Source of the DNA: a virus
Length of the DNA stretch: 39,781 bases
IMG/VR virus record: IMGVR_UViG_3300021959_000125
Coordinates: 1-39,781 of that record
Reading direction: 5' to 3' (one strand)
In this document: in pieces, positions 17,101-39,781 of the stretch
Position numbering within the stretch: position 1 is the first letter of the stretch
Layout of the letters: each line of letters begins with the position of its first letter
The notes under the pieces: model-generated
Told to the model about the DNA's origin: nothing
Seen by the model: the letters and a program-made list of their open reading frames with translations, nothing else
Databases searched by the model: none
Program-made: the position numbers and the translations under genes

Positions 17101-20100
17101 GATACCTTTGCTTCACCTCAGAAAATAATTAGAGGGCATGACGGTAGTATCACTGTTGCTTATGATGATTTTAGAGATTTACTATTATTAGAATTTGAAA
17201 AAAGAATTTATAACAATATTAAACAAAAATATAATCCTGAAATTTTAGATATTGATAACTTGTTTAGTGGCTGGGATAAAACTGGTACATTTACTAAAAA
17301 ACAAGTTGACGATATCTTAGAATTAGAATTCTTAAGATGGCCGTTGGTCAAAAATATTGACATTTATGAAAACTCATATTATGATCAAGATAACCAGTTT
17401 ACATGGACATATAATAAAAACTTAGATATTTTAAGACAGGAACAATTACCTAAACATTGGAGAGGTGTGTATCAATATTTGTTTGACACACAAACACCAC
17501 ACAGAACTCCATGGGAAATGCTAGGGTTTACAATCAAGCCAACTTGGTGGGATAGTGAATACGGAACAGCTCCGTATACATCAAATAATTTAATTTTATG
17601 GGAAGATCTCAGAGATGGTATTATTAGACAAGGCGAAAGACAAGGTAAGCATAAAAGATATACTAGACCATATTTGCTACAACTTTTACCTGTTGATGCT
17701 GATGGAAATTTAATTTCCCCGCTTGAAGCCAACATCATAGTTGACTACTCTACAAACTATCAAGATGATTTTACTTTTGGTGATATATCACCGGTTGAAT
17801 CAGCATGGCGCAGAAGCAGTGTTTATTCTTATGCTCAATTAATAGCGGCATGTTTACTAACACCGTTTGAAACAATTAGTTTAAATTTAGATAGAAATAT
17901 TTTTCAAAAAAATAAAGTAGGACAATTTGTTAGTAAAACTACTAACACATTTTTAACGGTTACTGATATTGTAGAATCGTTGAATAGTAATTCTCGACCA
18001 GAAGGCTTATTATCATATGTTGTAAACTATCTGAAATCAAATGCTAGAACAAAGCAAGATGTTTTAGAAATATACAGTAATTTTGATTTACAATTAAGCA
18101 CTAGAATGAAAGGATTTGTTGATAAGTCTCAACAGCAATATCTACTTGATAGTAAAAATCCGCAAAGTAAACAAACAGGAATTTTTATTCCGTCTGAAAA
18201 CTATGAGATTTTCTTCAATACCAGCTCGCCGTTGTTCACTACACGATACAGTGGTGTACTTGTTGAAAAAGTAGCAGGCGGTTATAAAGTATCAGGATAT
18301 GATCAGCTCAATGCTATCTTTAACTATTATAGTTTCTTTGCTCAACAAAATGATCCTGTATTAGACATTGGCGGCGTAAGCGAATCTTTCGTAGAATGGG
18401 CACCAGAATCTTTTTATATTAAAGGCTCTTTGATTAGAAGACAAAATCAATTTTTCAGAGCTATTCAAGCCCACCAATCAGGCGATCTCTTTGATCCAGC
18501 ACTTTGGAAACAGATAGACGAAGTACCTGTTGTTGGTGGAGCAAGAGCAATAAAAAGAACTCGGTTTAATCAAGTTGATAGACTTACATTAAACTACGAT
18601 ACTGTATTTGATAATATACAGTCGGTGGTTGATTTTCTCTTAGGCTACGGGTCATTTTTAGAAAGTCAAGGAATGGTGTTTGATCAGTATAATCAAGATT
18701 TAGGTGTTGTACAGAACTGGGAAACATCAGTAAAAGAATTTTTATTCTGGACCACACATAATTGGGCCGAAGGAAGTATTTTATCTGTAAGTCCAGGCGC
18801 AACATTACTGAAATTTGAAAATATTGGTTCGGTAGCAGATAGTGTTCTTGATAGTTTTTATGATTACAATATTCTTAAAGCAGACGGAACTAAAATCGAA
18901 GCAACTAACATTGATGTTTATAGAGGAATTAATGAACTTTTAATTGCTCCAGAAAACGACAACGAAGGAATTTATTTTGCTGAAATAAATTATGTTCAAA
19001 AAGAGCATGTTACAATCTTTTCAGATAAAACAGTTTTCAATGATGTACTATTTGATAAAGGTGCTGGATACAGACAAGAAAGAATTAAGAGTAAAGGATT
19101 TAGAACTGTTGACTGGGACGGAAATTATACAAGTCCAGGATTTGTTTTTGATAAAGTCAATATTCTTCCATGGAAGCAGTTTACAGATTATAGAATAGGA
19201 GACATTGTACAGTACAAAGAGTTCTATTATGTGAGTAAAAAGTTCCAGCGAGGAGCTGAAAAGTTTGATAGAACTTTTTGGGATTTACTAGATAATCTTC
19301 CTGAGTCGGGCTTGGTAGCTAACTTTGATTTTAGAATTAATCAAATTGAAGATTATTATGAAACAAGTATCGAAGGCATAAATTCAAATCAAAAAGAATT
19401 AGCAAAACATACAGTGGGTTTCCAAGCAAGAGAATACCTACAAGAAATTGCTGAAGATACAGTTTCTCAATTTAAATTATATCAAGGCTTTAGTAGAGAA
19501 AAAGGCACTAACAACGCAATCAAAAAAGTGTTTGATAAAGTAAGCACAGTTAGTGATGATAAAATTGTTCTTGATGAAGAATGGGCATTTAGATTAGGAT
19601 CTGTGGGCGGAACCGATCAAATTGACGAAGCAGAGTTTGATTTAAAAGTAAGTGACTTTAAATTAAATCCGCAACCTATTTTACTTAACGGAAAACAATT
19701 TGATATAGTCGATTTCCAAAACTATATTTTACTTAATGATAATGATTATCAATTAGCTAATACTAGTTTTACATTTCCGACAAAACGTTTTGAAGTTCCT
19801 AAAAATTCAGCAGGGTATATATTCAGCAGTGATGTTCAGTTTATAAGAAATAACCTACAAGAACTACTAACAAACGAAACATCAATTGATCAGTTTAAAC
19901 AGGGCGATAACATTTGGACTACATTCGAAACCAGCGGTTGGAATGTTTATAGATATGTTGTTAGTAATGTATCAATTGTTACAGCAGAGGCACCTGATGT
20001 TGATAGAATTGTTCTTAATACAAATAGAGTTCATAATTTTACTATAGGTCAGATAGTTGGATTAAATGGAATTCTAGGGTTAACAGGATTCTATCAAGTA

Positions 20101-23100
20101 GCAGAGATCACTCCTACTACAATAGTAATTGCTATTTCTGGATTTAGAGAAGCACCGCAAGTTGACGAAAGTTCTTTTGCGTTTGTAAGTTATTTTGAAA
20201 GTGTGAGAGTAGCATCATACGAAGAACTAGTTAATAAAGGATTTTCTAAGTTACCAGTAGGTTCTAAAGTCTTTATTGATCAAAATGAAGATAACAATAA
20301 CTGGGAAGTTGTACAAAGAAACAAACAATATCAAGTAACACAGATTTCAGAATATGGTGTTGCTTTCCCAACAGGGACTGGTAGTGCTGTTACTTTTGTA
20401 CCAGAATTAAATCAAACTATTGTTGGTAACCCAGGCGCTCCAGTTTTCAGCGGCGATGTTATTAGAGATTCAGCTGTTATAGTCTACTCCGATGGAGAAA
20501 CAGGACTTATACCTTTACAAATCTTAGCACCTAAAAGCGGATTACAAACTTCATATCTTGGAGCGTATGCTGAAGTACTTACAGCAAGTAAAGATGGTCG
20601 TTGGTTAGTTGTTGGATCACCTAAAGCAAGTTACATCCCAAGTAACTATCAAGAAAAATTCAACCCTGGTGCGAATTACGAACCAGGCGACATTGTGCTT
20701 TATAACGGAAAGTTATATGAAGCAACTACTAGAGTATTTGGCGACGGAAGTACTATTGATCTTTCGTCACAAGATTGGAAACCAGTAGAATTGCCTCAAG
20801 CCAATCCACTTGGAGCAGATTTATTCTTAGCAAACAAAGGTTATGCTAGACAGGGTGGAGTTGATATCTACGAGTATTCAAACGGACAATGGACACTAAG
20901 AAATAGTTTGGTAAGCCCAAGACAAGGCAACGGAGAATATTTTGGTAATTCAATAGCAATTGGAAAATTAGAAGGCATTGAAGGAACAAGCGGTGACGTA
21001 ACTTTAACTGTAAATGAAATTGACAATGCTGGCGGGATTGTTTCTGTTAAAGCAAACGGAACTAGCGGATTAAATGATCAAGTATTTGAGAACGTTAGCG
21101 GAGTTGATGTAAGTAGTGAAGGTGTTAATGCTACATTTGATGTTACTAGATCTACAGGAACACCTATATACGACATTGAAGTACGTAACGGCGGAACCGG
21201 ATATACTGTTGGAGATCAACTTTATATTCAAGGTACCAGAGTAGGCGGTCAACCAGCAACTGGAATTTCAAATAATGACATTGTAATTACTGTAAGAGCA
21301 GTAGATGAGAACGGAACAATTTTAGGTTCAGATACATTTAACAATATAACAGGTATTTTAAGTACACCAGTTAGTGAAACAGCTCTATTTACAATTACAA
21401 AAAACAAAGATGTTTATAATGTTAGATTAAGACAGGACGGTGCTGTTAAAGTACAGCCCGGTGATGGTTACAAACAGCGTAGTATAGTTAGATATGGGGC
21501 TTTCTTTTATGCCTGTATAAAGGATACAAACATTGATAAAGGTGTTTGGTCAGCAACAGCTACTTATGACTCAGGCGATGTAGTTAAGTATCCTGCTAAT
21601 AGTTCACAGTATTGGAATGTATTAAAAACAGTTACAGGCGTCGAACCCGGAACTGACAGTACCGCATACAGTTCATACGAAACAATTTTTCCTGATAGAT
21701 CACCAGAGTATTGGGAACAGGTACAAGGATTTCCATTTAGTGTAGAATATATTAGTGATCCTGCTAATCAATTATTTGGCACAGGAAACTGGGTACCATG
21801 GGATGAAAAAGATAATCAGGGTAACTTAATCACATACACTTCAGGTACTACTATTGTTATACCTGGTAACACCGTAGGAGGTGTTTCACCAGATAATGAT
21901 ATTACAATTAGAATTAATCAAGTTTCGGACAACGGCGATGTAGGACCATTTCCTACAAAACGAGAAGGTGAAATTCAATTCTTCAGTTATACAGGTACTG
22001 CCGCAATTGGCATTGATTATAAAGGCATTCCGGGACCTGGTAGCGGAACATTTTTAGATGTTACACCCGAAGACGTATCAAATCCTGGAACAGGTGCTAT
22101 TTTTAATATTGAAAGAAAAGCAGGAGCATACGAAGCATCAATTAGTGTAGCAGGTTTAGGATATGTTGTAGGTGATCAAATTAGAATCCTCGGAACGGCG
22201 CTCGGTGCTGTTGATGAAAGTTATTACCTAGCAATTTCTGCTCCAGGAAGTAGGGATGATAGAGGTAAAGTATATCTATACCAATACAATGGAATCAAGT
22301 GGACGCTATTACAAGATACTAATTTTGTAGGACTTTTTGATATTAATAGAAGTTATGTACAAGGTAGTATTGTTTGGTATGGAAGTTCTTACTATAAAGC
22401 AAAAGAATTCTTCACAGGAAACGGAGTAATTACTCCAGATGTAAGCGATTCTTGGGAGGCAACAAATACAGTTAACAGAGATATTGTGCCAAATGTATAT
22501 GCTTATGTTGACGACGGTTCCTCTTTAGAGCAAGGCACAACAGATGATCAAATTGAAAATATAGACATTGGAGATAAGTTCGGCACAAGTATAGCAATGA
22601 CTAATGATGGTTCTGTATTAGTTTCAAGTGCTCCTTATGCTGATACATCAAACTTTGAAAATTATAGAGGCGTATGGAGAACTACTGAAACTTATATTCA
22701 GGGTGACGTTGTTAGAAGAAATAACAAGTACTACCAACTTGATAGTGATTCAAGTCTAACTAGTATCAATGATGCTCCTGAAATTGACAACAAATGGATT
22801 GAAGTACAAAATACAGGAACGCCGAGAACAGGTGTTGTGTTTGTCTATAAGAAAAACGAAAACAGAGTTTTTGAATTCATTCAAGAAATTAACAAGAGCA
22901 ATATACCAGGTCTGAATCCTGGAGATGCTTTTGGTGAAAAAGTTACTGTTTCATCAGACGGTACTACACTATTTGTAGGATCACCTAATTCAGATAAAAA
23001 TGAAAAAGATCAAGGATCTGTTTTTATATTCGGATGGGAATCAAATAAATTTGTATTCACACAAAAAATACAATCTAATACAAATGACTATGAAGAAAGA

Positions 23101-26100
23101 TTTGGATCAAATTTAAGTATTTCTCCAGATGGAAAAACTTTAGCAGTATCTGCTGAAGGAGCAGAAACATTTGAGATTACTACATTTGATAAAGATGAAA
23201 CTAGATTTGATAGACTTACTACTAGTTTTGCTGATCCAATAGGTACTACTGGTAAAGTATTTGTTTTCAACGAATACGGCGGAAAGTGGGTACTTGGAGA
23301 AATATTTGAAGATAATTTAAGTTTTAATGAAGACTTTGGTCGTTCATTAGCTACAAGTAATAATACTATTATTGTTGGTTCACCAAGCTACTTGTCAGAT
23401 GATCCGGCATTTACTGAAGTAGTGATTGGTAGAATACAAAAATTTGAGAAACTAGATGGTGTAAAACCGTGGACAGTTATAAGAAATCAAACTAACCAAG
23501 TTGACATTAGTAAGATTAGAACACTTGCGGCATACCAAAAAGACACTTATACAAAAATTGCCGATATAGATGTTGTAGATACATTCAAAGGAAAGTTACT
23601 TGGTATTGTTGAACAAAACATTGACTTTAAAACACCTTTTGATCCTGCTGTATATACAGAATCAAACAATGAAGAATTAACAACAAAAGATGAGTCTCAA
23701 CATTGGACTGAAAAACAAGTTGGTAGAATTTGGTGGGATACGTCAAAAGTCAAATATCTTGTCTATGAACAAGGTGATGTTGTATTTAGAAACGGTAATT
23801 GGAATTCTTTTGCTCAAGGAAGTTCAATAGACGCTTATCAATGGATTGAATCTACATTAAAACCAAGTCAATGGGCAGAACTTGCTAACGGAGATGATCC
23901 AACAATTACAGGTAATCCGTTATATCCTGACGATACTGTTTATAGTGTAAAAAGAAAAGTTGATCCAATATCCGGAAATGTTTCTAAAACACTTTATTAT
24001 TACTGGGTTAAGAATAAGCAAACAACAGAAACAAATAGTTCTAAGACACTTGCGTCTAGTCAGGTTGCTGATTACATTGTAAATCCACAAAATGCTGGAG
24101 TTCCGTTTGCGTTTGTTATTGACAAAGATAAAATTACATTAAGTAATCTTAAAACTTTGTTAGATACTGATGAATTTAGTGTTAACGTACAGTTTTATAA
24201 AAATGTTACTGATATTAATTTAATACACAACGAATATGTTCTTACAACTGAAGAAAGTACAAAGAATCCTAATGAAGATTTAGAAAGAAAATGGATTGAT
24301 AGTTTAGTTGGTAGCGATGTTCTTGGTAACCAAATTCCTGATCCTAATTTATCAGATAAAAACAAATATGGTATCGAAAGTAGACCAAGACAAACTATAT
24401 TTGTAAACAGAAATAAAGCAGTAGAACAGACTATTACATTTATTAATGATGCTTTGTATACTTTACCATTAGCTGATGAAATTGACTACGGTTATCTAAA
24501 TTTGATTGATGAAAAACCTAGTACAGTTAAAAGACTATATGATTTAAGTATTGATACAGAACAAGAATTAAGGTTCTACGCAAAACCTACAATTAAAGAT
24601 GCTGTGCTCTCAGCAAATATTATTAACGGACATGTTAATACAATTGATATTGTTGATCCTGGTTTTGGATACAAGTCTGCTCCTCTTATTACTATTAGAG
24701 GTGAAGGTGAAGGAGCAACGGCCGAAGCAACTATTGATAGTTTTGGTAGAATATCAAGTGTAACTGTAACTAATCAAGGTAAGAAATATCTAACTGCTAA
24801 TCCTATTGTTAGATCTTTCAGTATACTTGTTGAAAGAGATAGCACAGTTAATGGATTCTGGAGTATATACTCATGGAGTGTTAGAGAGCAAGAATTTTAT
24901 AGAGTTGCTACACAAGAATATGACACTACGAAATATTGGGAATATATCGATTGGTGGGCACCTGGATTTTCTGAAGAATCTAGAATTATTCAAACGCTTC
25001 CGGGACTGTATGCTGAGCAAGAAGTTGACCTAGAAGACAACCAGTTATTGAGATTAGACGATTATGGTTCTGGTGGTTGGGCTGTGCTACAACGTGTTTC
25101 ACAAGGAGCAACTATTAAAGGTAAGTTTAAGTTAGTTGGTAGACAACAAGGTACTATTCGTATTATTAACAAGTTTTATAATACAGAGATTGAATCAACC
25201 GGTTATGATAAAACACAAACATATGACAGTAACCGTTATGATACAAGTGCGGCAAAAGAGTTTAGAAACATTCTAAACGCTATGAAGTATGACATATTTG
25301 TAGATGAATTAGCCGGGTACTGGAACAAATTATTCTTTGTAAATATTCACTATGTGTTTAGTGAACAGTTATATATTGATTGGGCATTCAAGACAAGTTT
25401 CTTAAATGCTATACACAATGTTGGATACTTACAACAAAAATTAAATTTCCGTAGTGATAATTTAGCGGCTTATCAAGCATACATTGAAGAAGTTAAGCCT
25501 TATAGAACTAAAATTAGAAACTATACAAGCAGATATCAAAATCTAGAAAATACAAATACAACAATATCAGATTTTGATCTTCCTCCGGTATACAATACAA
25601 CTACAAATACAATTAATCCTGTAAAACTAGGCGATGATGAGATTGATTTACAACCTTGGAATACTTGGTTTAACAATTATAAGTTTGAAGTTACAGATAT
25701 TATACTTACAGAACAAGGCAGTACGTATTCAACTGCTCCTCAGGTAATATTTACAGGCGGCGGCGGTAGTGGAGCAAAAGCCAAAGCATATATTTCAAAT
25801 AGAAAAGTTACTAAAATTGTTCTACTTGATAGCGGTCAAGGCTATACAAGTGTTCCTACAATTGAATTAGTAGGCGGTGTTGGTACACAAACACAGTTTA
25901 GTGCTAAGGCTGTTGCTAGAATTGGTAAGAGTAAAGCAAGACTTTTCCACAATACTATTAAATTTGATAGATTTAGCAAAACACCAACATTTAAATCGTA
26001 TAGTGCTAACGAAAGATTTATTGAAACTGAGTCGTTTGCTGGAACAGGAAGATTAACAACTTTTGAATTGAAGTATCCAAGTACATTAGACAAGAGTTCT

Positions 26101-28953
26101 ATCACAGTTTTTGTAGATAATCAGCAACAATTTGCTAGTGATTATACAATTACACTGTTTACTAAGTTAGTGAATGGATTAACTGTACTTAAAGGAAGAT
26201 TAACCCTACTTACGCCAGCATCAGAAGGATCTAATATTACTATTAGATATGAAAAGAATGATGAAATACTTGATAGCTTAAACAGAATTGACAAGTATTA
26301 TAAACCAACTGATGGAATGTTAGGTATTGATAAAGACGTTCCTGACAACGGCGGCGAAATTACTACTGATTATTCACAGTTAGTTACAGGCATGGATTAT
26401 GGCGGAGTAATTGTACAAGGTGCTACATTCTCAGTTGGCGCAGGATGGGACGCATTGCCTTGGTTTACTGAAGGCTGGGATACAGCAGAAAGTAACAGTA
26501 AAGATTTTTACATTGCCGCAGATGAAAGTACACATTCATTTGTGTTACCTGAAATACCAGAGTCTGGAAAAGTTTATAATATCTATATTAGAAGAAAAGG
26601 CGATACTAATACTACAAGACTAGACGATCCTAATTTTGGTACAGCACAACAAACCAATGAAAGTGCTATTATGCCATCGTTTGTTGGTGATGGTAGTACT
26701 AATGTAATTGATATTCCTATACCAGATGAGGGAATATACATTAATGATGGCGATGTATTAATTTTCCGTCCTATTGAAAGTGATGGTTCGATTGATATAC
26801 AGTCAGCAAATTATCTAGATGCTGAAGTGAGCGGCGGAACATTGCTTGGATCTAATCCTTATTCAACAGCAACTGGTATCTTACCAGAAGAAATTGTAAT
26901 TGATGGTGAAAAGTTTATTAGTCCGGAACAAGTTCCAGCACCAGAGGAAAATATTCCAGGTCAAGTTTTAGAAAGTCTAAGTATCAGAGTTTTCCATACA
27001 GATAGATTTGGTGCTCCGGCAGTTCTTTCTAGAATTTATACAGCAGACGGAACACAGCAGACTTACAAAATTGATCAGCATATTTTACAAAACGCTAACT
27101 TGCTTGTGTACGTTAACAAAGTTTTAAAAGAAGTACAAGTAGATTATACTGTTGATTATAAGAACAACGAAATAAGATTTATTAGCCCTCCTAATAATTT
27201 AGATATTATTGAAGTATTTTCTTTAGGAGTAGGCGGTGTTGAGTTGCTTGATGTGAGAGAATTTACCGGTGACGGGCAAACACGTTATTTCCTAACAGGT
27301 GCTCCTTTTAGTTCTACAGGAAAAGTTTTTGCTACTATAGATGGAGAAGTAACAAGCGTTGGTTTTGTAAACAGCAATGGCGTTGTTAATGAATCAGATA
27401 ATACTTTGATAGAATTTGGTATCCCTCCAGTAAACAATTCATTAATTCAGATAGTTGTTTTATCAGAAGAAAGTGGACAAGCAGATAGTATTGTTAGAAT
27501 TAATCAAGAAAGAATTAATTTAACAGCAGGTACTAGAGAATATCCAATTCAATTTTTTGAATCACTAGCTTCGTCTGATACTTCAAATGTTATTGTTGAG
27601 TATAATGGGTCATTACTAAAAACCATTGATAGTACATACGTTGTATATGATGGAAATGATGTAATTACACTTAACAACGATCCTGAGATTGGCTCAGGCA
27701 CAGTTATTCCAAGCAAAATCAAAGTTTTTGTCAACAGAGAACTTTTAAGAGATGCTGTAGATTATAACTTTAACGGTGCCGATAATGAAGTAAGATTATT
27801 AAAATCATTAAACAAAGGTGATATTGTTTTAATTGAAAACGCCAAAGACGCAAATTACGAAATAGTCGATGGCAAAATTAAATTTTCACCGCTGTATACA
27901 ATACAAGCAGGAGATTATATTGATGTAATTTGGTTTACAAGATATACTGAAGTTGATATCGTAAGAGATGTATATAAAGGTAATCAAAATAGCTATAAGT
28001 TACAAAGAAGTGTAAGAAATATTTCAAATGTTTGGGTTTATAAAAACGGTGTTAGATTAACTGCCGGTATTGACTTTTATATTGGCGGAGCAAATAATTC
28101 AGTTTATCTAAAAGACAGTACTTTAGAAACTGATATAATTGAAACATTGACATACAGTAACAAAATTTATAACACTCCTTTAAGTTATGAAATACATAGA
28201 GATGTTTTAAACAGAAACAGTTATCATAGATATCAATTAGTTAATATTTCTCTAGCACAAGATTTATATTACTATGATACAGTAATTAAACTTAATGATG
28301 CTTCTGGATTACCTAATCCAAGTTCAGGACAACCTGGCATTGTAAGCATAAATGGAGAAAAAATTGAATACCTGAATAAATCAGGAAACGAACTACAGAA
28401 CATTAGACGAGGATTATACGGAACAAGCATCAGAACACTACACGAATCTGGTACTTTAGTAGTTGATACAGGATACACAGAAACGTTACCTTATAACGAT
28501 AATCAAGAAAAATTTGATTTTGTGTCAGATGGTTCTAGTTTATTAGTAGGTCCATTAGAATTTGTTCCTGTAAAAGGCGGAGAATTTAACACAAGCACAT
28601 CGTTTACTTCTGATATTCCACAAGGTTACGGACGTTGCGATGATATTGAAGTATTTGTTGGAGGAAGAAGATTAAACAAAAATGCGTTTAAACTGTACGA
28701 CTCAACAGTAGCATCAATCAGTCCTGAAGGTGATGTTCAGTATGACGCTGAATTTGCTGTAGATGGCATAAATGAATATGTAAGGTTAACTAGTGCTGTG
28801 GCACCAGGAACACGCATTACTATTATTAGGAGAACAGGTAAAACTTGGTACGATAGAGGGGAAACTACTGTATCTGATGGTACTTCATTAAGTGAAGCAA
28901 CATCAGCAATAGCAAGATTCCTACAAAATAGTAGCACAGAATTACCCGAATAA
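14134..28953 (+). CDS. Giant 4,939-aa baseplate/tail structural protein in gp7 position
   Basis: One open frame of 14.8 kb. Residues 1-180 begin with SELPVRETYQLLPEIF and include a conserved-looking WNPPIDWDKFINYREYYWLP (about 129-148). About 187-265 resembles a cupredoxin-like beta domain. About 1060-1260 is a Trp-rich block (HWRGVYQYLFDTQTPHRTPW). Carbohydrate-binding-like GD-V-YNG-LY-A units occur near 1420, 1680, 2180, 2470, 2740 and 2850. Beta-propeller-like blades lie between 2140 and 3115. Two GYxSxP units are near 3508 and 3857. A C-terminal array of VFVNG-type beta domains runs from about 3960 to 4930. It follows gp6, where T4 has gp7 (1,032 aa), so a wedge role with surface extensions is inferred. 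Similar large proteins occur at this site in marine T4-like phages. The exact homologue is not certain. Confidence 0.72.
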   Translation: MDKKIFKQSELPVRETYQLLPEIFKSSTNRKFLSATLDPLVQPGTLDRISGYIGRNYGRTYNSKDIYVDKEESLRHAYQLEPGVVVRDSENLSVKSFYDYIDVKSQLKFFNNNNERDDLTTSIRSYSWNPPIDWDKFINYREYYWLPQGPDTISISGQAQDVISEYRVRSQSDDEFLFYPDGLTPNPSLLLYRGQTYIFNVNTPGDPFYIRRNPTEGDLANYNTGVTNNGIEVGTVSFTVPNNSPDLLYYQSGNNIDRVGMFRIASVDENTSIDVEAEIIGKLNYTSANNVKFSNGLKINFTGNVTPEKYAQGDWLVDGVSTSIRLINFQELDLPPVKNDDVDVLFDDGGWDELPFDDAVSFPSNKDYITINRSSKDRNPWSRYNKWFHRDVIDYSASINNVASKINEQSRAKRPIIEFSSNIQLINHGSIAKQSVDFIDDFTTDVFSTIEGTAGYNIDNVDVFDGARIIFTADNDPLVKNKIFVVKKIVIQANNTADNKQIALVEADDSNTSKGECVIIKFGKNNAGLMYHFDGENWIRSQTKDSVNQSPKFDIFDDDEVSFTDNTKYETSSFAGSNLLSYKPGSGPVDKELGFSIAYQNLNNSGDIEFNSDWDVDSFTYQVSAENKSKKINSGYIKTTETLDNVSFHNLYIPSDPVFDQGIIQTYTLSEETSEVIFSNIDWISSVDANLYFYNNGNFIRDSYTIVSTVEGKRTFKFDNTKFTEGDTVTLKVFSNDEPNLGFYEFPKSLERNPLNQELKTFTLGQATDHLRSMVNYSNDFVGIFPGTSNLRDISNYQNKGQRFVKYTSVASSSLPLLCDKNVNIIKSIRYAAREYENYKSNLIKLSTTLPFGGEDVISFLDQIVSKISNAKPDSSPFVNSDMIGSGANKVSKYTVEDTGIKTFSLSEKFDLTTPSTKAVYLYLNNVQLIHGIDYVFDSEFSFVRVIRDLNENDLLEIKEFYSTSYNYIPETPASLGLTKTYVPEMYVDDTFASPQKIIRGHDGSITVAYDDFRDLLLLEFEKRIYNNIKQKYNPEILDIDNLFSGWDKTGTFTKKQVDDILELEFLRWPLVKNIDIYENSYYDQDNQFTWTYNKNLDILRQEQLPKHWRGVYQYLFDTQTPHRTPWEMLGFTIKPTWWDSEYGTAPYTSNNLILWEDLRDGIIRQGERQGKHKRYTRPYLLQLLPVDADGNLISPLEANIIVDYSTNYQDDFTFGDISPVESAWRRSSVYSYAQLIAACLLTPFETISLNLDRNIFQKNKVGQFVSKTTNTFLTVTDIVESLNSNSRPEGLLSYVVNYLKSNARTKQDVLEIYSNFDLQLSTRMKGFVDKSQQQYLLDSKNPQSKQTGIFIPSENYEIFFNTSSPLFTTRYSGVLVEKVAGGYKVSGYDQLNAIFNYYSFFAQQNDPVLDIGGVSESFVEWAPESFYIKGSLIRRQNQFFRAIQAHQSGDLFDPALWKQIDEVPVVGGARAIKRTRFNQVDRLTLNYDTVFDNIQSVVDFLLGYGSFLESQGMVFDQYNQDLGVVQNWETSVKEFLFWTTHNWAEGSILSVSPGATLLKFENIGSVADSVLDSFYDYNILKADGTKIEATNIDVYRGINELLIAPENDNEGIYFAEINYVQKEHVTIFSDKTVFNDVLFDKGAGYRQERIKSKGFRTVDWDGNYTSPGFVFDKVNILPWKQFTDYRIGDIVQYKEFYYVSKKFQRGAEKFDRTFWDLLDNLPESGLVANFDFRINQIEDYYETSIEGINSNQKELAKHTVGFQAREYLQEIAEDTVSQFKLYQGFSREKGTNNAIKKVFDKVSTVSDDKIVLDEEWAFRLGSVGGTDQIDEAEFDLKVSDFKLNPQPILLNGKQFDIVDFQNYILLNDNDYQLANTSFTFPTKRFEVPKNSAGYIFSSDVQFIRNNLQELLTNETSIDQFKQGDNIWTTFETSGWNVYRYVVSNVSIVTAEAPDVDRIVLNTNRVHNFTIGQIVGLNGILGLTGFYQVAEITPTTIVIAISGFREAPQVDESSFAFVSYFESVRVASYEELVNKGFSKLPVGSKVFIDQNEDNNNWEVVQRNKQYQVTQISEYGVAFPTGTGSAVTFVPELNQTIVGNPGAPVFSGDVIRDSAVIVYSDGETGLIPLQILAPKSGLQTSYLGAYAEVLTASKDGRWLVVGSPKASYIPSNYQEKFNPGANYEPGDIVLYNGKLYEATTRVFGDGSTIDLSSQDWKPVELPQANPLGADLFLANKGYARQGGVDIYEYSNGQWTLRNSLVSPRQGNGEYFGNSIAIGKLEGIEGTSGDVTLTVNEIDNAGGIVSVKANGTSGLNDQVFENVSGVDVSSEGVNATFDVTRSTGTPIYDIEVRNGGTGYTVGDQLYIQGTRVGGQPATGISNNDIVITVRAVDENGTILGSDTFNNITGILSTPVSETALFTITKNKDVYNVRLRQDGAVKVQPGDGYKQRSIVRYGAFFYACIKDTNIDKGVWSATATYDSGDVVKYPANSSQYWNVLKTVTGVEPGTDSTAYSSYETIFPDRSPEYWEQVQGFPFSVEYISDPANQLFGTGNWVPWDEKDNQGNLITYTSGTTIVIPGNTVGGVSPDNDITIRINQVSDNGDVGPFPTKREGEIQFFSYTGTAAIGIDYKGIPGPGSGTFLDVTPEDVSNPGTGAIFNIERKAGAYEASISVAGLGYVVGDQIRILGTALGAVDESYYLAISAPGSRDDRGKVYLYQYNGIKWTLLQDTNFVGLFDINRSYVQGSIVWYGSSYYKAKEFFTGNGVITPDVSDSWEATNTVNRDIVPNVYAYVDDGSSLEQGTTDDQIENIDIGDKFGTSIAMTNDGSVLVSSAPYADTSNFENYRGVWRTTETYIQGDVVRRNNKYYQLDSDSSLTSINDAPEIDNKWIEVQNTGTPRTGVVFVYKKNENRVFEFIQEINKSNIPGLNPGDAFGEKVTVSSDGTTLFVGSPNSDKNEKDQGSVFIFGWESNKFVFTQKIQSNTNDYEERFGSNLSISPDGKTLAVSAEGAETFEITTFDKDETRFDRLTTSFADPIGTTGKVFVFNEYGGKWVLGEIFEDNLSFNEDFGRSLATSNNTIIVGSPSYLSDDPAFTEVVIGRIQKFEKLDGVKPWTVIRNQTNQVDISKIRTLAAYQKDTYTKIADIDVVDTFKGKLLGIVEQNIDFKTPFDPAVYTESNNEELTTKDESQHWTEKQVGRIWWDTSKVKYLVYEQGDVVFRNGNWNSFAQGSSIDAYQWIESTLKPSQWAELANGDDPTITGNPLYPDDTVYSVKRKVDPISGNVSKTLYYYWVKNKQTTETNSSKTLASSQVADYIVNPQNAGVPFAFVIDKDKITLSNLKTLLDTDEFSVNVQFYKNVTDINLIHNEYVLTTEESTKNPNEDLERKWIDSLVGSDVLGNQIPDPNLSDKNKYGIESRPRQTIFVNRNKAVEQTITFINDALYTLPLADEIDYGYLNLIDEKPSTVKRLYDLSIDTEQELRFYAKPTIKDAVLSANIINGHVNTIDIVDPGFGYKSAPLITIRGEGEGATAEATIDSFGRISSVTVTNQGKKYLTANPIVRSFSILVERDSTVNGFWSIYSWSVREQEFYRVATQEYDTTKYWEYIDWWAPGFSEESRIIQTLPGLYAEQEVDLEDNQLLRLDDYGSGGWAVLQRVSQGATIKGKFKLVGRQQGTIRIINKFYNTEIESTGYDKTQTYDSNRYDTSAAKEFRNILNAMKYDIFVDELAGYWNKLFFVNIHYVFSEQLYIDWAFKTSFLNAIHNVGYLQQKLNFRSDNLAAYQAYIEEVKPYRTKIRNYTSRYQNLENTNTTISDFDLPPVYNTTTNTINPVKLGDDEIDLQPWNTWFNNYKFEVTDIILTEQGSTYSTAPQVIFTGGGGSGAKAKAYISNRKVTKIVLLDSGQGYTSVPTIELVGGVGTQTQFSAKAVARIGKSKARLFHNTIKFDRFSKTPTFKSYSANERFIETESFAGTGRLTTFELKYPSTLDKSSITVFVDNQQQFASDYTITLFTKLVNGLTVLKGRLTLLTPASEGSNITIRYEKNDEILDSLNRIDKYYKPTDGMLGIDKDVPDNGGEITTDYSQLVTGMDYGGVIVQGATFSVGAGWDALPWFTEGWDTAESNSKDFYIAADESTHSFVLPEIPESGKVYNIYIRRKGDTNTTRLDDPNFGTAQQTNESAIMPSFVGDGSTNVIDIPIPDEGIYINDGDVLIFRPIESDGSIDIQSANYLDAEVSGGTLLGSNPYSTATGILPEEIVIDGEKFISPEQVPAPEENIPGQVLESLSIRVFHTDRFGAPAVLSRIYTADGTQQTYKIDQHILQNANLLVYVNKVLKEVQVDYTVDYKNNEIRFISPPNNLDIIEVFSLGVGGVELLDVREFTGDGQTRYFLTGAPFSSTGKVFATIDGEVTSVGFVNSNGVVNESDNTLIEFGIPPVNNSLIQIVVLSEESGQADSIVRINQERINLTAGTREYPIQFFESLASSDTSNVIVEYNGSLLKTIDSTYVVYDGNDVITLNNDPEIGSGTVIPSKIKVFVNRELLRDAVDYNFNGADNEVRLLKSLNKGDIVLIENAKDANYEIVDGKIKFSPLYTIQAGDYIDVIWFTRYTEVDIVRDVYKGNQNSYKLQRSVRNISNVWVYKNGVRLTAGIDFYIGGANNSVYLKDSTLETDIIETLTYSNKIYNTPLSYEIHRDVLNRNSYHRYQLVNISLAQDLYYYDTVIKLNDASGLPNPSSGQPGIVSINGEKIEYLNKSGNELQNIRRGLYGTSIRTLHESGTLVVDTGYTETLPYNDNQEKFDFVSDGSSLLVGPLEFVPVKGGEFNTSTSFTSDIPQGYGRCDDIEVFVGGRRLNKNAFKLYDSTVASISPEGDVQYDAEFAVDGINEYVRLTSAVAPGTRITIIRRTGKTWYDRGETTVSDGTSLSEATSAIARFLQNSSTELPE

Positions 28954-28956: not shown

Positions 28957-28988
28957 CAATGAGAGATAACAAACTCGAAGAGACGGAT

Positions 28989-33870: not shown

Positions 33871-35493
33871 ATGCCATACCAGATAAACAAATTTAACGGA
33901 GATCAATTAGTAGTACTACAAGATGGTACATTAGACTCTACTACAAGTATCGGACTTGTTGGTAAAAATTTTGCTGGCTATGGTGAAATTCAAAACGAGA
34001 ACGCATTATGGATGTTAGAAAATTTTGCTGGAGTTGGTGCTCCGCCAAAAGCTATTAAAGGTCAACTTTGGTATGATTCTAATGTTGATAGAATTAAAGT
34101 TTACGATAGTACTAAATGGTTATTGGTAGGCGGAACAGAAGTAACTGCGACCGCTCCAACTTCACCCTCAACAGGCGATACTTGGTTAGAATCAGGTACT
34201 AAAAAGTTTCATGTATATGATGGTAATCAGTTTGTATTTGTAGGAGCAGAAGATGTACCTGGATATAATGGTCCTACAAGAGCTATTAGTGCTGAACTAA
34301 CAGACGATCAAGGTGCTACACATCCTGCTATTAGAATAACAGTGAATGGAACCACTATTGCTATTGTAACAGATAGTCCATATACTGTAAACAACATTCC
34401 AGGATTTACAAATTTAGACGCAGGAATAAATTTAAATTCTGCTACTTACCTAAAAGGAGCATTACACGGTAATGCCGATACAGCAACTGCACTTCAAACT
34501 CCGAGAAATATTAACGGAGTAGCATTTGATGGAAGTCAAAATATTACAGTTACATCAAGTACTACCAATCCTTTAATTGCTGGAACATTCTTAACAGGAA
34601 ACAACTTTGATGGTACAAATTCTACCACATGGTCAGTTAATGCTACAGCGAATGATGTAAGCGATACTGTTGTTTCAAGAGATAGCGCAGGCAATTTTAG
34701 AGCAAATACAATTACAGCAGATTTAAACGGTAATTCAACAGGAACACATACAGGACCATTAGTTGGGAATGTAACAGGAAATGTAACAGGAACACATACA
34801 GGACCAGTAGTTGGAAATGTAACAGGTAATGTTTCAGGTAACGTAACAGGTTTTGTAACAGGTAATGTAACTGGTACATTAGTAGGAAGTATACAAAACA
34901 CAGATACAAGTGTTGCTTATGATGAAGTTACAAGAACATTCAATGGAACATTAAATGGAAATGCTTCAAGTGCTAATAAACTTACAGCACCAACAACTAT
35001 TAATAATGTACCGTTTGATGGTAGTGGTCCAATTACAATTCAAGATCTAACTAAACTTCCGCTTTCCGGCGGAATATTGTTAGGTACACTATTATTACAT
35101 CAAGATCCTACACAAAGTTTACAAGCCGCAACAAAACAGTATGTAGATGCTAGAGATACAGCAACGGAACAAAGCGTACTAGCTCAACTACCTCCTGCTT
35201 ATACAATTACGTATGGCAATACACAGTATAGCACAACTGGTTTTACAAATCAAGTAGGAAGTTTCAACAACAGTAGAAATAATTTTGATGTATTTCCTCC
35301 CGCAGGTAAAACAATGGCAGATCTTATAGCATTTATACCTAGTATTGCTGTAATTCATTATGCCGGCGGTGTTGATGGTAACGATAGTTTAAGATGTATA
35401 TGGTCTAATCTAGGAGATAGAATTAGAGTTTATGTACAAAACACAGAACAGAGAAGTACACCAGCCGCAAACTGGTTGGCGATTTGGAGTTAA
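33871..35493 (+). CDS. Tail fibre protein 3 (paralogue) with GNVTG repeats
   Basis: A 540-aa fibre protein. The N-terminal module (1-125) has AGYGEIQNENALWMLENFAG, GQLWYDSNVDRIKVYDSTKW and GDTWLESGTKKFHVYDG. Residues 195-290 carry text common in phage fibres (GNADTATALQTPRNINGVAF, VVSRDSAGNFRANTITADL). Residues about 290-340 are a run of TGTHTGPLVGNVTGNV-type units, likely a beta-helical or fibrous shaft. The C-terminus (about 440-540) ends in a compact tip (RIRVYVQNTEQRS, then NWLAIWS). It is the shortest complete fibre of the set. The repeat is encoded by near-identical DNA (34738-34833), so copy number may vary. Confidence 0.78.
   Translation: MPYQINKFNGDQLVVLQDGTLDSTTSIGLVGKNFAGYGEIQNENALWMLENFAGVGAPPKAIKGQLWYDSNVDRIKVYDSTKWLLVGGTEVTATAPTSPSTGDTWLESGTKKFHVYDGNQFVFVGAEDVPGYNGPTRAISAELTDDQGATHPAIRITVNGTTIAIVTDSPYTVNNIPGFTNLDAGINLNSATYLKGALHGNADTATALQTPRNINGVAFDGSQNITVTSSTTNPLIAGTFLTGNNFDGTNSTTWSVNATANDVSDTVVSRDSAGNFRANTITADLNGNSTGTHTGPLVGNVTGNVTGTHTGPVVGNVTGNVSGNVTGFVTGNVTGTLVGSIQNTDTSVAYDEVTRTFNGTLNGNASSANKLTAPTTINNVPFDGSGPITIQDLTKLPLSGGILLGTLLLHQDPTQSLQAATKQYVDARDTATEQSVLAQLPPAYTITYGNTQYSTTGFTNQVGSFNNSRNNFDVFPPAGKTMADLIAFIPSIAVIHYAGGVDGNDSLRCIWSNLGDRIRVYVQNTEQRSTPAANWLAIWS
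34738..34833 (+). repeat. Two in-frame 48-bp tandem units in fibre 3
   Basis: Units 34738-34785 and 34786-34833 each begin ACAGGAACACATACAGGACC, differ at only a few positions and keep the reading frame. Degenerate GNVTG units continue to about 34890. In-frame repeats of this kind can expand or contract by recombination without breaking the gene. Confidence 0.75.
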
Positions 35494-35494
35494 T

Positions 35495-35851
35495 ATGTAT
35501 TACGTTTGTATAGAAAATAGTGAAGTAACATCAATATTAAATTACAGGCCAAATGTGCCTAGCAGTATTGAAGTGGTTGAAATTTCAGATGATAATATGA
35601 AATTATTAGAAGCAGGTAACCATTACTTTAATGTTGATACAAAATCAGTAACATCAAAATCCGCTGAAGAACTACAAGAAAAAGCAGATGCTGAAGCAAA
35701 TATTGAAAACTTAGAATTTTTACGTAGTACTGACTGGAAAGTTCTTAGACACATTAGAGAACAGAAGTTAGGTATTACAACTAGTTTAACTGAAGAACAA
35801 TATGTTTCTTTAGAAATACAAAGAGAAGACGCCGCAAAGGCAATTAGGTAA
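35495..35851 (+). CDS. Putative tail-fibre assembly protein
   Basis: A 118-aa protein. The start at 35495 is chosen because GGAG (35486-35489) precedes it at normal spacing, whereas an in-frame ATG at 35432 lies inside fibre 3 without such a site. The N-terminus is a small beta segment (YYVCIENSEVTSILNYRP). The centre is an Ala/Glu-rich helix. The C-terminus (about 75-117: FLRSTDWKVLRHIREQKLG, then SLTEEQYVSLEIQR) follows the pattern of tail-fibre assembly proteins (DW-x-x-x-R-x-x-E, then an LTxEEY helix and a final Arg-rich helix). Such proteins help fibres trimerise and may cap the tip. The location between two fibre genes agrees. Confidence 0.6.
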   Translation: MYYVCIENSEVTSILNYRPNVPSSIEVVEISDDNMKLLEAGNHYFNVDTKSVTSKSAEELQEKADAEANIENLEFLRSTDWKVLRHIREQKLGITTSLTEEQYVSLEIQREDAAKAIR

Positions 35852-35862
35852 CGGAGCGAAGG

Positions 35863-37647
35863 ATGCCATATAACGTAAACAGATACAACGGTGTACTACA
35901 AACAACAGTACCTGATCAAACAGTCGATACATCATCAACTGACTTAAGATTTGTAGGTAAAAATTACGCAGGATATGGCGAAATCCTAAATGAAAATTTC
36001 TTACACTTGCTCGAAAGTTTTAGAGGTGATACTCAACCAAGAAAAAGCATACCTGGACAAATTTGGTATGACGATCTAAATAACAAAATTAAATTTAGAA
36101 GTACAGATAATCAGTGGAGAGGACTTGCTATTGCTGATGTAAGCAGTATACCTCCAACTGGACTACAAAATAAAGATGTTGGAAACTTTTGGTATAACTC
36201 AACTGCTGGACAGATTAGTGTTTGGAATGGATCTGATTTTGAATTAATTGGTCCAGAAAGAGCAACAGGGTTTTCTGAAACAAAATTAACTTCTGCTGTA
36301 ATTCGTGATGATAGTAACATTGCTCATGCTATTGTAAAACTTGTAGTTGATAATACAGTAATTGGTGTTATATCCGATGATGATTTTGTTATTGGAACTA
36401 TTGAAAGTATTACAGGGTTTACAAATATTAAGAAAGGTATTACATTAGTTAATACTGGATCAGACGGTGTTACAACAGGTGATCATAGATTCTGGGGAAC
36501 AGCCGGAGACACTTTAAGATTTACTGGTTTAGATATTAATAACTTCGTACTAAGAGCACCAGGCGGATCAACTTATGATGATGCTGGCTTAACTGTTGGT
36601 ACAGATGGCGATTTAAGAATTGCTATTGACAACGGTGACGAAGCAGTTATTGAAAATTCTTTAGGTAATACCGTTAGAGTAAGAGTAAAGACAGGCAATG
36701 TAAATGATGACATTGCTATATTTTCAAATGTAGGATTTTTACCAGGTACAAGTAATAGATTTAACATTGGTTCTTCAGGACAACGATACAGAGAAATACA
36801 TTCAAGAGAAATGTATGCTGATACAATTGAAGGTACTCTTAATGGTAATGTAGTTAGTGATAGTGGTTTAACAATGGTTAACAAACTAACCAACGAGCTA
36901 AATGGTACATTGATTGGAGACCTAAAAGGAAATATTTTAGATAGTGCTAACAATTATGTTTATGAAGCCAGCACTAAAACTTTTACCGGTACAAATGCTA
37001 CAATAACAAATGTAAGCACAGACACTTTGACAGTGGTTAATAGAGTTATAGGAGATGTTAAAGGTGATATATACGCACAAGACGACAGTATTGCGTACAA
37101 TAATAACACCAAGGACTGGTACGGTACCTTTAACGGTAACGCAGATACCGCTTCAAAACTAGCAGGAACACCACAAATTAATGGAGTTGTGTTCGATGGA
37201 AGTCAAAATGTTACAGTAATTGATTCTTCGAGAGTAGCAAAGACTGGTGATACTATGGTTGGTAATTTAACAATTACAGCACAACCTACGCTGAATGATC
37301 ATGCGGCAACAGTACAGTATGTTAACACAGCAATTAGAAGTAGAACAATTTTCTTAAGTTTAGATACTAGAGGTTTAAACGAAACTACCAATGGGCCAGG
37401 ATCGGTTGCCAACATGCTTAATACACTAGCACCAGTGAGTAATTTCGAAGTAGGAACAAGAGCTCATGTAGCAAGTACTAGACAGAATGTTTCATCTACA
37501 GGAGTATTAACTTATGCTAGTTGGATTGGTTATACATCTGTTAGTGGGGTGAATATCACTACAACAGTTTCTGATCCTACAAGAAATAACAATTTAATTT
37601 ACGAAGTTAACCAAGCGGGGAATAGTTGGGTATATGTCTCAGGTTAA
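35863..37647 (+). CDS. Tail fibre protein 4 (paralogue)
   Basis: A 594-aa fibre protein. The N-terminal module (1-130) has AGYGEILNENFLHLLESFRG, GQIWYDDLNNKIKFRS and GNFWYNSTAGQISVWNG. The middle has GTLNGNVVSD and GDVKGDIYAQDDSIAYNNN, also seen in fibre 5. Residues about 455-490 have the widespread fibre motif AKTGDTMVGNLTI followed by HAATVQYVNTAI. The tip (about 487-594: RSRTIFLSLDTRG, FEVGTRAHVASTR, WVYVSG) resembles the end of fibre 2. The last 14 bases overlap the downstream oxygenase gene. ACGGAGCGAAGG precedes the ATG. Confidence 0.77.
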   Translation: MPYNVNRYNGVLQTTVPDQTVDTSSTDLRFVGKNYAGYGEILNENFLHLLESFRGDTQPRKSIPGQIWYDDLNNKIKFRSTDNQWRGLAIADVSSIPPTGLQNKDVGNFWYNSTAGQISVWNGSDFELIGPERATGFSETKLTSAVIRDDSNIAHAIVKLVVDNTVIGVISDDDFVIGTIESITGFTNIKKGITLVNTGSDGVTTGDHRFWGTAGDTLRFTGLDINNFVLRAPGGSTYDDAGLTVGTDGDLRIAIDNGDEAVIENSLGNTVRVRVKTGNVNDDIAIFSNVGFLPGTSNRFNIGSSGQRYREIHSREMYADTIEGTLNGNVVSDSGLTMVNKLTNELNGTLIGDLKGNILDSANNYVYEASTKTFTGTNATITNVSTDTLTVVNRVIGDVKGDIYAQDDSIAYNNNTKDWYGTFNGNADTASKLAGTPQINGVVFDGSQNVTVIDSSRVAKTGDTMVGNLTITAQPTLNDHAATVQYVNTAIRSRTIFLSLDTRGLNETTNGPGSVANMLNTLAPVSNFEVGTRAHVASTRQNVSSTGVLTYASWIGYTSVSGVNITTTVSDPTRNNNLIYEVNQAGNSWVYVSG

Positions 37648-38125
37648 TCTTATAGAAAATTATTGTTCGAATCCAAGCGAAATAGTTGAACTAGCTGAAA
37701 AATATTCAGATAAGTTTTCAACAAGAACTGATGGCGATAAGTTTCAATTTAAAACTAAGTATGGAAAAAGTAATATGAAAAGTATGTTTCATATAAACAT
37801 GCCAGAAGATTTACTTGATACTATTTGGAAAACCATTCCAGAAGATAGAACATTTGTTGAGAGTGTTACTCTTAATAGGTATGATCCTGGTGACTATCTA
37901 CCACGCCATAAAGATTCAATCGGAAGTTATTGGAAATTTAAATTGATATTCTTACAAAGTGACAAACCTCATTTCAAATGGTACGATAAAGAAGGCAACA
38001 GTTACTTAATTGACGAAAAACCAGGAGCAGTTGTTGATATGCCAATTGATTTAGAACATGAGGTAACAGAAATAGGACAAGACGAAAGACCAAAGTACAG
38101 TTTAGTACTGGCATGGGGAGCATAA
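37634..38125 (+). CDS. 2-oxoglutarate/Fe(II)-dependent oxygenase
   Basis: A 163-aa protein with the jelly-roll oxygenase iron site. H92-x-D94 sits in YLPRHKDSIGSYW and the distal histidine is H142 in DLEHEV. A basic residue for 2-oxoglutarate follows, R152 or K154, in ERPKYSLVLAWG. Such enzymes hydroxylate or demethylate proteins, nucleic acids or small molecules; the substrate cannot be told from sequence. It starts inside the end of fibre 4 (14-base overlap) and is followed closely by another small gene, so it is made with the fibres. Modification of fibre residues is an attractive inference. 2OG-Fe(II) oxygenases are known in cyanophage genomes, often without assigned substrate. All metal ligands are present. 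Confidence 0.8.
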   Translation: MSQVNLIENYCSNPSEIVELAEKYSDKFSTRTDGDKFQFKTKYGKSNMKSMFHINMPEDLLDTIWKTIPEDRTFVESVTLNRYDPGDYLPRHKDSIGSYWKFKLIFLQSDKPHFKWYDKEGNSYLIDEKPGAVVDMPIDLEHEVTEIGQDERPKYSLVLAWGA

Positions 38126-38126
38126 T

Positions 38127-38597
38127 ATGGCGATAGAAACTAAAAAATTAATCTTTATGAAGTCCAATGGTGTTCTCGTTGCCATGATGGATAAAGATCA
38201 AAGTACAGACTATATTGATACTGAAAAGTTTCAAATTAAAGTAGTTGAAATGGATAACGAAAATGGTGATTATTGGCATGGTGACCACGATACTGGTAGT
38301 GTTCAAAGCAAAAGTGACAAGCCAGTTGTAAACGAATCAACTCTTAAGTATAATACTAATATCAAGATACTTCAAGAATATCCTATTCATAAACAACTTA
38401 ACATTATTATTGAAATGTTAGACGCATCTGATGTGCCTAACACTCCAGAATTTACGGCAATGAAAGCGTTTATTGATGCTGCAAAAGCTAATTTAGATGA
38501 AAAAATAACAGCGTACTCAACAAACAGCGATGCTTATACATTTGTGTCAACAGATGATGATAAAGCACAAGCTGAAGCGTTAAAGACGTTTGAATAA
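38127..38597 (+). CDS. Small fibre-cassette protein, possible assembly factor
   Basis: A 156-aa protein. Residues 1-65 are beta-like (KKLIFMKSNGVLVAMMDKD, then FQIKVVEMDNENGDYWHGDH). The C-terminal half is helical, with ILQEYPIHKQLNIIIEML (about 90-107) and a final Ala-rich helix. The YP-x-x-x-QL pattern resembles the C-terminal helix found in small fibre-assembly or chaperone proteins of marine phages (YPSIGDQLD-like), but the match is weak. GGGGAG lies 6 bases before the ATG, with a 1-base gap after the oxygenase stop. Its place between the oxygenase and fibre 5 supports a fibre-related role. Otherwise unknown. Confidence 0.55.
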   Translation: MAIETKKLIFMKSNGVLVAMMDKDQSTDYIDTEKFQIKVVEMDNENGDYWHGDHDTGSVQSKSDKPVVNESTLKYNTNIKILQEYPIHKQLNIIIEMLDASDVPNTPEFTAMKAFIDAAKANLDEKITAYSTNSDAYTFVSTDDDKAQAEALKTFE

Positions 38598-38619: not shown

Positions 38620-39781
38620 ATGGCATATCAAGTAGACAAATATAACGGAACATTTTTAGTAAGCGTAGCAGACGGTACTATTGACACTACAACTGATATT
38701 AAATTAGTTGGAAGAAACTATAGCGGCTATGGTGAAGTTCAAAATGAAAACTTTTTACATCTACTTGAAAGTTTTTCAAACAGTGTACAACCAGAAAAGC
38801 CAATTCAAGGACAAGTTTGGTTTGACACTAACAGTTTAAAATTAAAATTCTACGATGGACAGCGATTTAGAACCGCCAGCGGAGCTGAAATTGGAGCTAG
38901 TCCGCCAGTTGGTTTATCACAAGGCGATCTTTGGTTTGATAGTCAAACTAATCAGTTAAGTGCTTGGAATGGATCAAATTTTGTTTTAATTGGTCCACAA
39001 AGCGCACCTGGTTTTGGTACTTCACAGATTGTTACAGAGGTTGTTAAAGACAATAATAACACTTCGCATGTAATACTTAGAGCAGTTGTTGGTGGTATTA
39101 CAACAGCAGTGTTTAGTAATGATGATGATTTTACCCTTAGTAATGATAATACACTAGCTGGTTTCAGTGAAACAGGTCGTCAAATCAAAAAAGGTATTAC
39201 ACTAAACAGTGTTAATGGCACAACTGGTATTAGTGATAGTGCTGGATTTAGATTTTTCGGTACAGCAAGTAACGCAGAAAAATTAGGCGGGCTAGATCAA
39301 ACACGTTTTGTTAGAACAGACGGTACAGAAGGATTTATAACACAACAATCATTTGCTGATGTTGGCTTTACTGTTGGTAATCCAGTTAAAGCACTTAAAA
39401 TTTATATTAACAGTGATCAAAATCCAGCACTTGAAAATCAAGTTAATGGTAAAATTGTAATTTCGTCAAGCAATCCAAGTAATTCAACTGATAAATTAGA
39501 CTTTTTAACATTTAGTAGAGAACAAGCATTTGTTAGTGATACAGATAGTTTCAATACTATATATCCTGGAGCAACCGGGGTAGTTAACTTAGGTTTGGAA
39601 TCACGTAAATTTAAAAATATTTGGTCAGAAAATTTAAAAGGTGAGTTAGTTGGCGATGTACACGGCAATGTTATAGGAGATGTAACAGGTGACATATACG
39701 CTCAGACTAGTCCTACTACAACAATTAAGATTTTTGATCAAGCGACTAGAGAATTTTCAGCACAAAAATTTACAGGACAAT
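38620..39781 (+). CDS. Tail fibre protein 5 (paralogue), cut by window end
   Basis: An open frame of 387 codons from the ATG at 38620 to the window edge, with no stop seen. The N-terminal module is a clear match to the other fibres (SGYGEVQNENFLHLLESFSN, GQVWFDTNSLKLKFYDG, GDLWFDSQTNQLSAWNG). The middle has FFGTASNAEKLGGLDQTRFV and then, near the edge, GELVGDVHGNVIGDVTGDIY, like fibre 4. The tip lies outside the window, so its receptor-binding end is unknown. Confidence 0.78.
   Translation, partial: MAYQVDKYNGTFLVSVADGTIDTTTDIKLVGRNYSGYGEVQNENFLHLLESFSNSVQPEKPIQGQVWFDTNSLKLKFYDGQRFRTASGAEIGASPPVGLSQGDLWFDSQTNQLSAWNGSNFVLIGPQSAPGFGTSQIVTEVVKDNNNTSHVILRAVVGGITTAVFSNDDDFTLSNDNTLAGFSETGRQIKKGITLNSVNGTTGISDSAGFRFFGTASNAEKLGGLDQTRFVRTDGTEGFITQQSFADVGFTVGNPVKALKIYINSDQNPALENQVNGKIVISSSNPSNSTDKLDFLTFSREQAFVSDTDSFNTIYPGATGVVNLGLESRKFKNIWSENLKGELVGDVHGNVIGDVTGDIYAQTSPTTTIKIFDQATREFSAQKFTGQ

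Follow-up and report, generated by a model that had tools for sequence, protein, structure and literature searches.

We identified an intact 2-oxoglutarate (2OG)-Fe(II) oxygenase within a row of phage fibre genes and found that it is linked to fibres and to a small partner protein across distantly related phages. The gene encodes a complete active site on a recognizable fold and evolves under purifying selection. It likely modifies fibres. The reading that we favor, at a probability of roughly 55%, is that the oxygenase, assisted by its partner, oxidises a fibre, most likely at the receptor-binding tip, during assembly; here we infer both the substrate and the timing. The window, meaning the whole 39.8-kb virus record analysed, contains T4-like baseplate genes, a late sigma factor, and the row of fibre genes, and related contigs reach 364 kb. 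The features used throughout are as follows.

33871..35493, + strand: fibre 3, with an unrelated tip; a comparison case with its own small partner
35432..35851, + strand: 139-aa protein after fibre 3, resembling tail-fibre proteins (phrog_8716, E 1.5e-6) and, weakly, tail-fibre assembly proteins (phrog_188, E 0.003)
35863..37647, + strand: fibre 4, 594 aa, the proposed client of the oxygenase
37315..37644, + strand: C-terminal tip of fibre 4, the proposed modification site
37634..38125, + strand: 2OG-Fe(II) oxygenase, 163 aa, ATG start
37907-37909, 37913-37915, 38057-38059, and 38093-38095, + strand: oxygenase active-site codons H92, D94, H142, and K154
38127..38597, + strand: 156-aa partner (PHROG 13209 family), a putative tail-fibre chaperone
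38620..39781, + strand: N-terminal part of fibre 5, cut by the window end

The oxygenase gene overlaps the end of fibre 4 by 14 bases, as a preliminary description of this DNA had claimed, and the partner gene begins one base past the oxygenase stop codon. A fibre N-terminus in the window resembles proteins of jumbo phages (Phosso, Atu_ph07, RaK2, and 121Q) across 11%–22% of its length. One 4939-aa open reading frame fills positions 14134-28953, with baseplate genes on one side and fibre genes on the other, and a giant virion structural protein is placed similarly in Phosso and Atu_ph07. Three radical SAM genes lie in a cluster after a fibre gene in Sinorhizobium phage Phosso (L087:14618-21742) and in Agrobacterium phage Atu_ph07 (L088:15388-21549); these clusters are possibly another fibre-modifying set.

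Sequence profiles for the oxygenase were below threshold (PHROG 2297, E 0.0017; NCBIfam AlkB, E 0.026; PADLOC "2OG," E 0.00056), a Pfam search gave no oxygenase match, and sequence searches of solved structures returned no oxygenase. Despite this, the fold is settled because an AlphaFold2 model built from a 24-sequence alignment (mean pLDDT 91.8, pTM 0.88) matches oxygenases by both Foldseek and VIA. The predicted model has the double-stranded beta-helix of the superfamily. The best Foldseek match in the PDB was the Pseudomonas putida prolyl-4-hydroxylase in complex with EF-Tu (4iw3, E 6.7e-8), and PHD2 and AlkB were also matched. VIA Z scores were 15.5 for PHD2 (3oui; 146 residues, 2.7 A), 15.4 for 4j25, 14.7 for AlkB (3bkz), and, for the viral collagen hydroxylase of PBCV-1, 14.2. 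The predicted fold is closest to protein prolyl hydroxylases (P. putida P4H and PHD2), although AlkB is tied with them to within about 1 Z. Prolyl hydroxylases (P. putida P4H, PHD2/EGLN, and PBCV-1 collagen P4H) share the beta-helix (Z 14.2–15.5) and the HxD...H iron triad, but identity to the window oxygenase is about 12%–17% and the likeness is a fold match only.

The H92/D94/H142 triad lies where it had been placed earlier, and H92, D94, H142, K154, and S156 are unchanged in all 47 distinct close homologues, window included. The basic 2OG-binding residue, also claimed earlier, is present, with one correction. Of its two candidates, R152 is variable (arginine in only 21 of 47), and the alignment points to K154, on the last core strand, as the 2OG-binding base. 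When later contigs and the homologues from Milchi, RVTF4, and L180 are included, giving 71 distinct proteins, the two histidines and the aspartate are still retained throughout (71/71); position 154 is arginine in those three distant homologues, and the S156 column is isoleucine or valine in Milchi and RVTF4. The 24-sequence alignment has 33 invariant residues out of 163, and the chance that the three residues named beforehand would all fall among them is 0.0077. For five residues the same chance is 0.00026, with K154 and S156 chosen after the alignment had been inspected. Pairwise dN/dS was 0.04–0.16 (15 pairs among six near relatives, with dS saturated in some). Based on the fold model, the invariant active site, and dN/dS, the protein is most likely an enzyme whose activity is maintained by selection, and the earlier claim of an intact oxygenase stands.

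Neighbourhoods in the window's own group were compared using the first 70 contigs with the oxygenase, plus the window counted twice (itself and its own copy, L001). These 72 rows contain many near-duplicate contigs and 47 distinct oxygenases. Among the 70 rows with a visible upstream gene, that gene is a fibre in 68; in the remaining two (L051 and L053) it is truncated by the contig start, and what is left ends in the same kind of tip. The partner family follows immediately downstream in 72/72 rows and is followed by a fibre in 72/72. A profile scan from the oxygenase, using the best 80 of 103 relatives, added 15 further loci, with a fibre upstream in 14 of 14 and the partner downstream in 14 of 14 visible cases (L084 begins within the oxygenase and L077 stops just after it). 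Viewed from the partner (best 80 of 99 relatives), 79 of 80 loci carry the oxygenase, and the exception, L123, begins within the partner gene. Viewed from fibre 5 (best 80 of at least 595), six loci carry the oxygenase and the same six carry the partner; the other 74 have neither in the stretch examined. A second fibre is visible upstream in 64 of these 74, and therefore so is the oxygenase slot. The fibre preceding that slot often has other tip types and is sometimes followed by a different gene of 118–124 aa. Presence of the oxygenase changes at least nine times on the fibre-5 tree (109 loci). The eight large contigs each have a single copy of this oxygenase, and six of them encode other PF13640 oxygenases elsewhere.

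The linkage extends to distant phages. The best matches among cultured phages were Pseudomonas phages Milchi and Astolliot. Oxygenase queries from Milchi and RVTF4 each returned 72 records (their own included) and the Milchi partner query returned 70, all from Pseudomonas phages; by eye, among the matches listed, oxygenase and partner matches are no more than about 105 bases apart in 11 records. Neighbourhoods were examined in five distant records (Milchi, RVTF4, phiKZ, PhiPA3, and QdP_Psa3), and in each the oxygenase and partner lie beside fibre or virion structural genes. Milchi, which we infer from gene order to be T4-like, has baseplate and collar fibre genes, then the partner homologue, the oxygenase, a third gene, and neck genes. 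In phiKZ, gp131–gp135 (tail/virion structural) are directly followed by gp136, gp137, and gp138 (PHROGs 13209, 2297, and 14616), of which gp136 is the partner homologue and gp137 the oxygenase homologue; PhiPA3 and RVTF4 agree with this order. QdP_Psa3 (115 kb) has a tail fibre and then the partner, oxygenase, and third gene as in phiKZ. The phiKZ arrangement differs from the window in that the partner precedes the oxygenase, the 2OG base is arginine, and a gp138-type gene is present. Profile comparison (hhalign) of the window group with the phiKZ type gave 97.8% (E 1.2e-12) for the oxygenase and 98.9% (E 1.8e-17) for the partner, and both proteins are thus homologous between the two. Their joint alignment retains HxD and the distal histidine, including in phiKZ and PhiPA3, with lysine as the 2OG base in the window group and arginine in five distant homologues. 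One contig, L256, has the phiKZ-type order (fibre, partner, oxygenase, gp138 type) within a window-type fibre cassette and is a bridge between the two arrangements; another, L180, has the phiKZ-type order without an upstream fibre. Continued adjacency to fibres among relatives had been proposed as a check on fibre hydroxylation, and it holds both in the window's group and in these distant phages. The fibre hydroxylation idea survives this check and is strengthened by phiKZ.

Among the viral contigs examined, the gp138-type gene was found only in L180 and L256. It follows the phiKZ-type oxygenase at L092:12453-12941, L089:8441-8917, L090:8312-8815, L254:9440-9946, and L256:6555-7016. Its identification as a degenerate oxygenase paralogue without HxD was set aside on a weak match (hhalign 34%, E 4e-4), and from sequence comparison it may be a degenerate oxygenase relative lacking this motif. 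Matches in Yersinia phages (15 records, E 0.03 or worse, coverage of 42% or less) were regarded as chance similarity; the one region examined has its match on the strand opposite to an annotated gene, near head and nucleotide-kinase genes and not near fibres. A search of bacterial and archaeal genome contigs gave 28 pattern matches, of which none was a relative.

The partner had been described earlier as a small putative assembly factor, and structural leads and profile comparison lend this modest support. Its predicted model (pLDDT 86.6, pTM 0.67) has N-terminal strands and C-terminal helices, as described for the Pam3 tail-fibre chaperone gp25 in the portion of that report consulted (PMC9608196). 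Three viral proteins matched its structure: one from 201phi2-1, uncharacterised and possibly the counterpart of gp136 there (E 5.1e-6, TM < 0.5); one from a siphovirus, likewise uncharacterised (E 8.6e-4, TM < 0.5); and a tail-fibre assembly protein from a Yersinia phage (E 0.005, TM 0.29). The top PDB row, probably the Pam3 fibre chaperone, was non-significant (7ypx chain a, 162 residues, E 0.14); according to the same part of the Pam3 report, gp25 has the same length, 162 residues (PMC9608196). The likeness to tail-fibre chaperones such as Pam3 gp25 and Mu Tfa is a weak PDB match, every VIA row against the PDB was below Z 6, and Pfam, PHROG, and NCBIfam searches gave no match to a Tfa-type family. 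From its model, the partner may be a fibre chaperone.

Fibre tips were compared in search of a target. Tips adjacent to the oxygenase are of two related types (hhalign 93.8%, E 1.8e-7), and the cassette has two further tip types, both unrelated to these. When tips were scored with a profile trained on fibres next to the oxygenase, which makes the test partly circular, tip type and oxygenase agreed on average in 6.5 of 7 independent pairs on the fibre-5 tree (109 loci; median p 0.016, range 0.016–0.063). By this profile 45 loci had both, 55 had neither, eight had the tip only, and one had the oxygenase only. A less circular profile, trained on other fibres, gave a non-significant result, with 1.9 of 7 pairs changing the same way and 0.1 the opposite way (median p 0.5; 20 loci with both, 47 with neither, 16 with the tip only, and 26 with the oxygenase only). 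A swap between tips A and B, labelled from a simple end pattern, was uninformative, as it occurs once on each of four gene trees (51 loci) and therefore does not distinguish the enzyme from the cassette's other genes. Across lineages, the phiKZ-type, Milchi, QdP, and L256 tips had no match to the window tips, and comparison of phiKZ-type tips with the Milchi/QdP/L256 set gave a probability of 71% (E 3.7e-5). Tips beside the oxygenase show no detectable homology from one lineage to another, and so a target motif common to them was not identified. Among 23 compared, 90% or more share a tip proline that L065 lacks. A collagen-type substrate was rejected, as 13 fibres had no Gly-X-Y runs beyond those in shuffled sequences; this is a further difference from the prolyl hydroxylase systems. 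The phiKZ-like phage fMGyn-Pae01 is reported to have putative collagen-like domains in a tail fibre, in the part of that report consulted (PMC11877940). The linkage of the oxygenase to fibres and to the partner is strong, and its linkage to a particular target is unsupported by the tip tests.

These results bear on a competing reading in which the oxygenase, though part of the fibre module, acts on the partner or is itself a binding or assembly factor, and mature fibres are unmodified. Its closest companion is indeed the partner and not any one tip type, and tips vary among lineages. A purely structural role would need no iron-binding residues, yet these are invariant in 71 of 71 proteins; this has no bearing on the partner as substrate. 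We regard this reading as unlikely.

It is less probable still that the enzyme acts on a host protein or surface molecule and lies in the fibre region merely since both are made late. The P. putida hydroxylase that gave the best Foldseek match was solved with EF-Tu, which is consistent with a host target. Timing alone hardly accounts for the recurrence, in separate lineages, of a link to fibres and to the same partner, or for the joint presence or absence of oxygenase and partner. The preliminary description had suggested late co-expression with the fibres, and here it was not borne out by promoters: a late sigma factor is encoded within the window, but the T4 late promoter TATAAATA is absent from its + strand and occurs a single time on the - strand, where about 7 would be expected, and a spaced version of the motif was likewise below chance. 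Scanning of the + strand found ATAAATAC twice, at 28950, where it abuts an ATG at 28959, and at 38594, 18 bases ahead of the fibre 5 ATG (38620). The latter could be a variant late promoter.

A nucleic-acid enzyme, either a repair enzyme like AlkB or the "DNA endonuclease" named by PHROG 2297, is very unlikely. In its favor, AlkB structures fall within about 1 Z of prolyl hydroxylases, the AlkB profile reaches E 0.026, and a DNA-repair role for cyanophage 2OG oxygenases is repeated by Sullivan et al. 2010, in the part consulted (PMC3037559). PHROG 2297, labelled DNA endonuclease, matches 19 of 24 members of the oxygenase family at E ≤ 0.01 (best 5e-7), and the oxygenase gene bears this label in the Milchi, phiKZ (RefSeq), and QdP_Psa3 records, apparently derived via that PHROG. 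The AlkB equivalog profile TIGR00568 scored 14.4 bits against a cut-off of 231.05. The phiKZ gp137 protein matches the oxygenase profile PF13640 just under its cut-off (E 2.1e-5, 25.8 bits; cut-off 27) and no Pfam nuclease at E ≤ 1. The gene lies among tail or fibre genes in all five distant records examined, and the location mostly in DNA-metabolism regions that would have counted against a fibre role was not seen for this family. A nuclease or AlkB was therefore rejected as the main explanation on neighbourhood and profiles, though the AlkB fold is tied structurally. The "DNA endonuclease" label also stands on an apparent 2OG-Fe(II) oxygenase at L092:11962-12444 (phiKZ gp137) and in other Pseudomonas phage records, and one Pseudomonas phage record, Churi, is already labelled 2OG-Fe II oxygenase.

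Cyanophage 2OG-Fe(II) oxygenases (PHROGs 61 and 81; PF13640/PF13759) are of the same superfamily as the window oxygenase, and two of 24 homologues match PHROG 81 and two match PHROG 61 (E ≤ 0.01); no cyanophage record matched the window oxygenase at E ≤ 1. In the portions of the reports consulted, 2OG oxygenases occur in 14 of 16 cyanophages, with 2OG modulation or DNA repair suggested as roles (Sullivan et al. 2010, PMC3037559), and phage S-SCSM1 has 24 such genes whose functions lack specific investigation (PMC9602691). Cyanophage enzymes are thus discussed there as metabolic or repair genes or left uninvestigated, whereas the window oxygenase is tied to fibres. Likewise in partial reading, gene 12 of the methylophage Melnitz, a 2OG-Fe oxygenase that may belong to another family, is placed among DNA replication genes (PMC9004378), and Phold identified EGLN3-like phage proteins chiefly in phages of marine bacteria (PMC12774648). 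An auxiliary metabolic gene that lowers 2-oxoglutarate or supplies succinate to the host, as put forward for cyanophage oxygenases generally in the part of PMC3037559 consulted, is highly improbable here, as it leaves the linkage to fibre genes and partner unexplained and other PF13640 oxygenases occur elsewhere in six of eight large related contigs. Neither a description of phiKZ gp137 function nor a report of fibre hydroxylation was found in a literature search with subscription journals largely outside its reach.

Under the favored reading, a working Fe(II)/2-oxoglutarate oxygenase would be part of a fibre-maturation module composed of fibre, oxygenase, and chaperone-like partner. The partner would hold the C-terminal part of fibre 4 as the fibre is made, and the oxygenase would hydroxylate or otherwise oxidise at least one fibre residue, most likely in the tip. 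The modified tip would then fold, trimerise, or bind its receptor properly, and the oxygenase and chaperone would depart. Because the oxygenase–partner pairing is kept in quite different phages, including the giant phiKZ, our results suggest that some phages chemically modify the fibres with which they recognize hosts. More tentatively, several phage lineages may possess a transferable receptor-tip maturation module in which the oxygenase hydroxylates the tip on its chaperone, and host recognition would then need an oxygen-requiring modification. If fibres are modified in this way, host recognition in these phages would depend on the oxygen, iron, and 2OG of the infected cell, fibres made in other hosts may need the oxygenase, and the "DNA endonuclease" label on many phage records would be corrected. 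As phiKZ is among the separate lineages in which the oxygenase is tied to fibres and a chaperone-like gene, fibre hydroxylation would be accessible in a cultured model.
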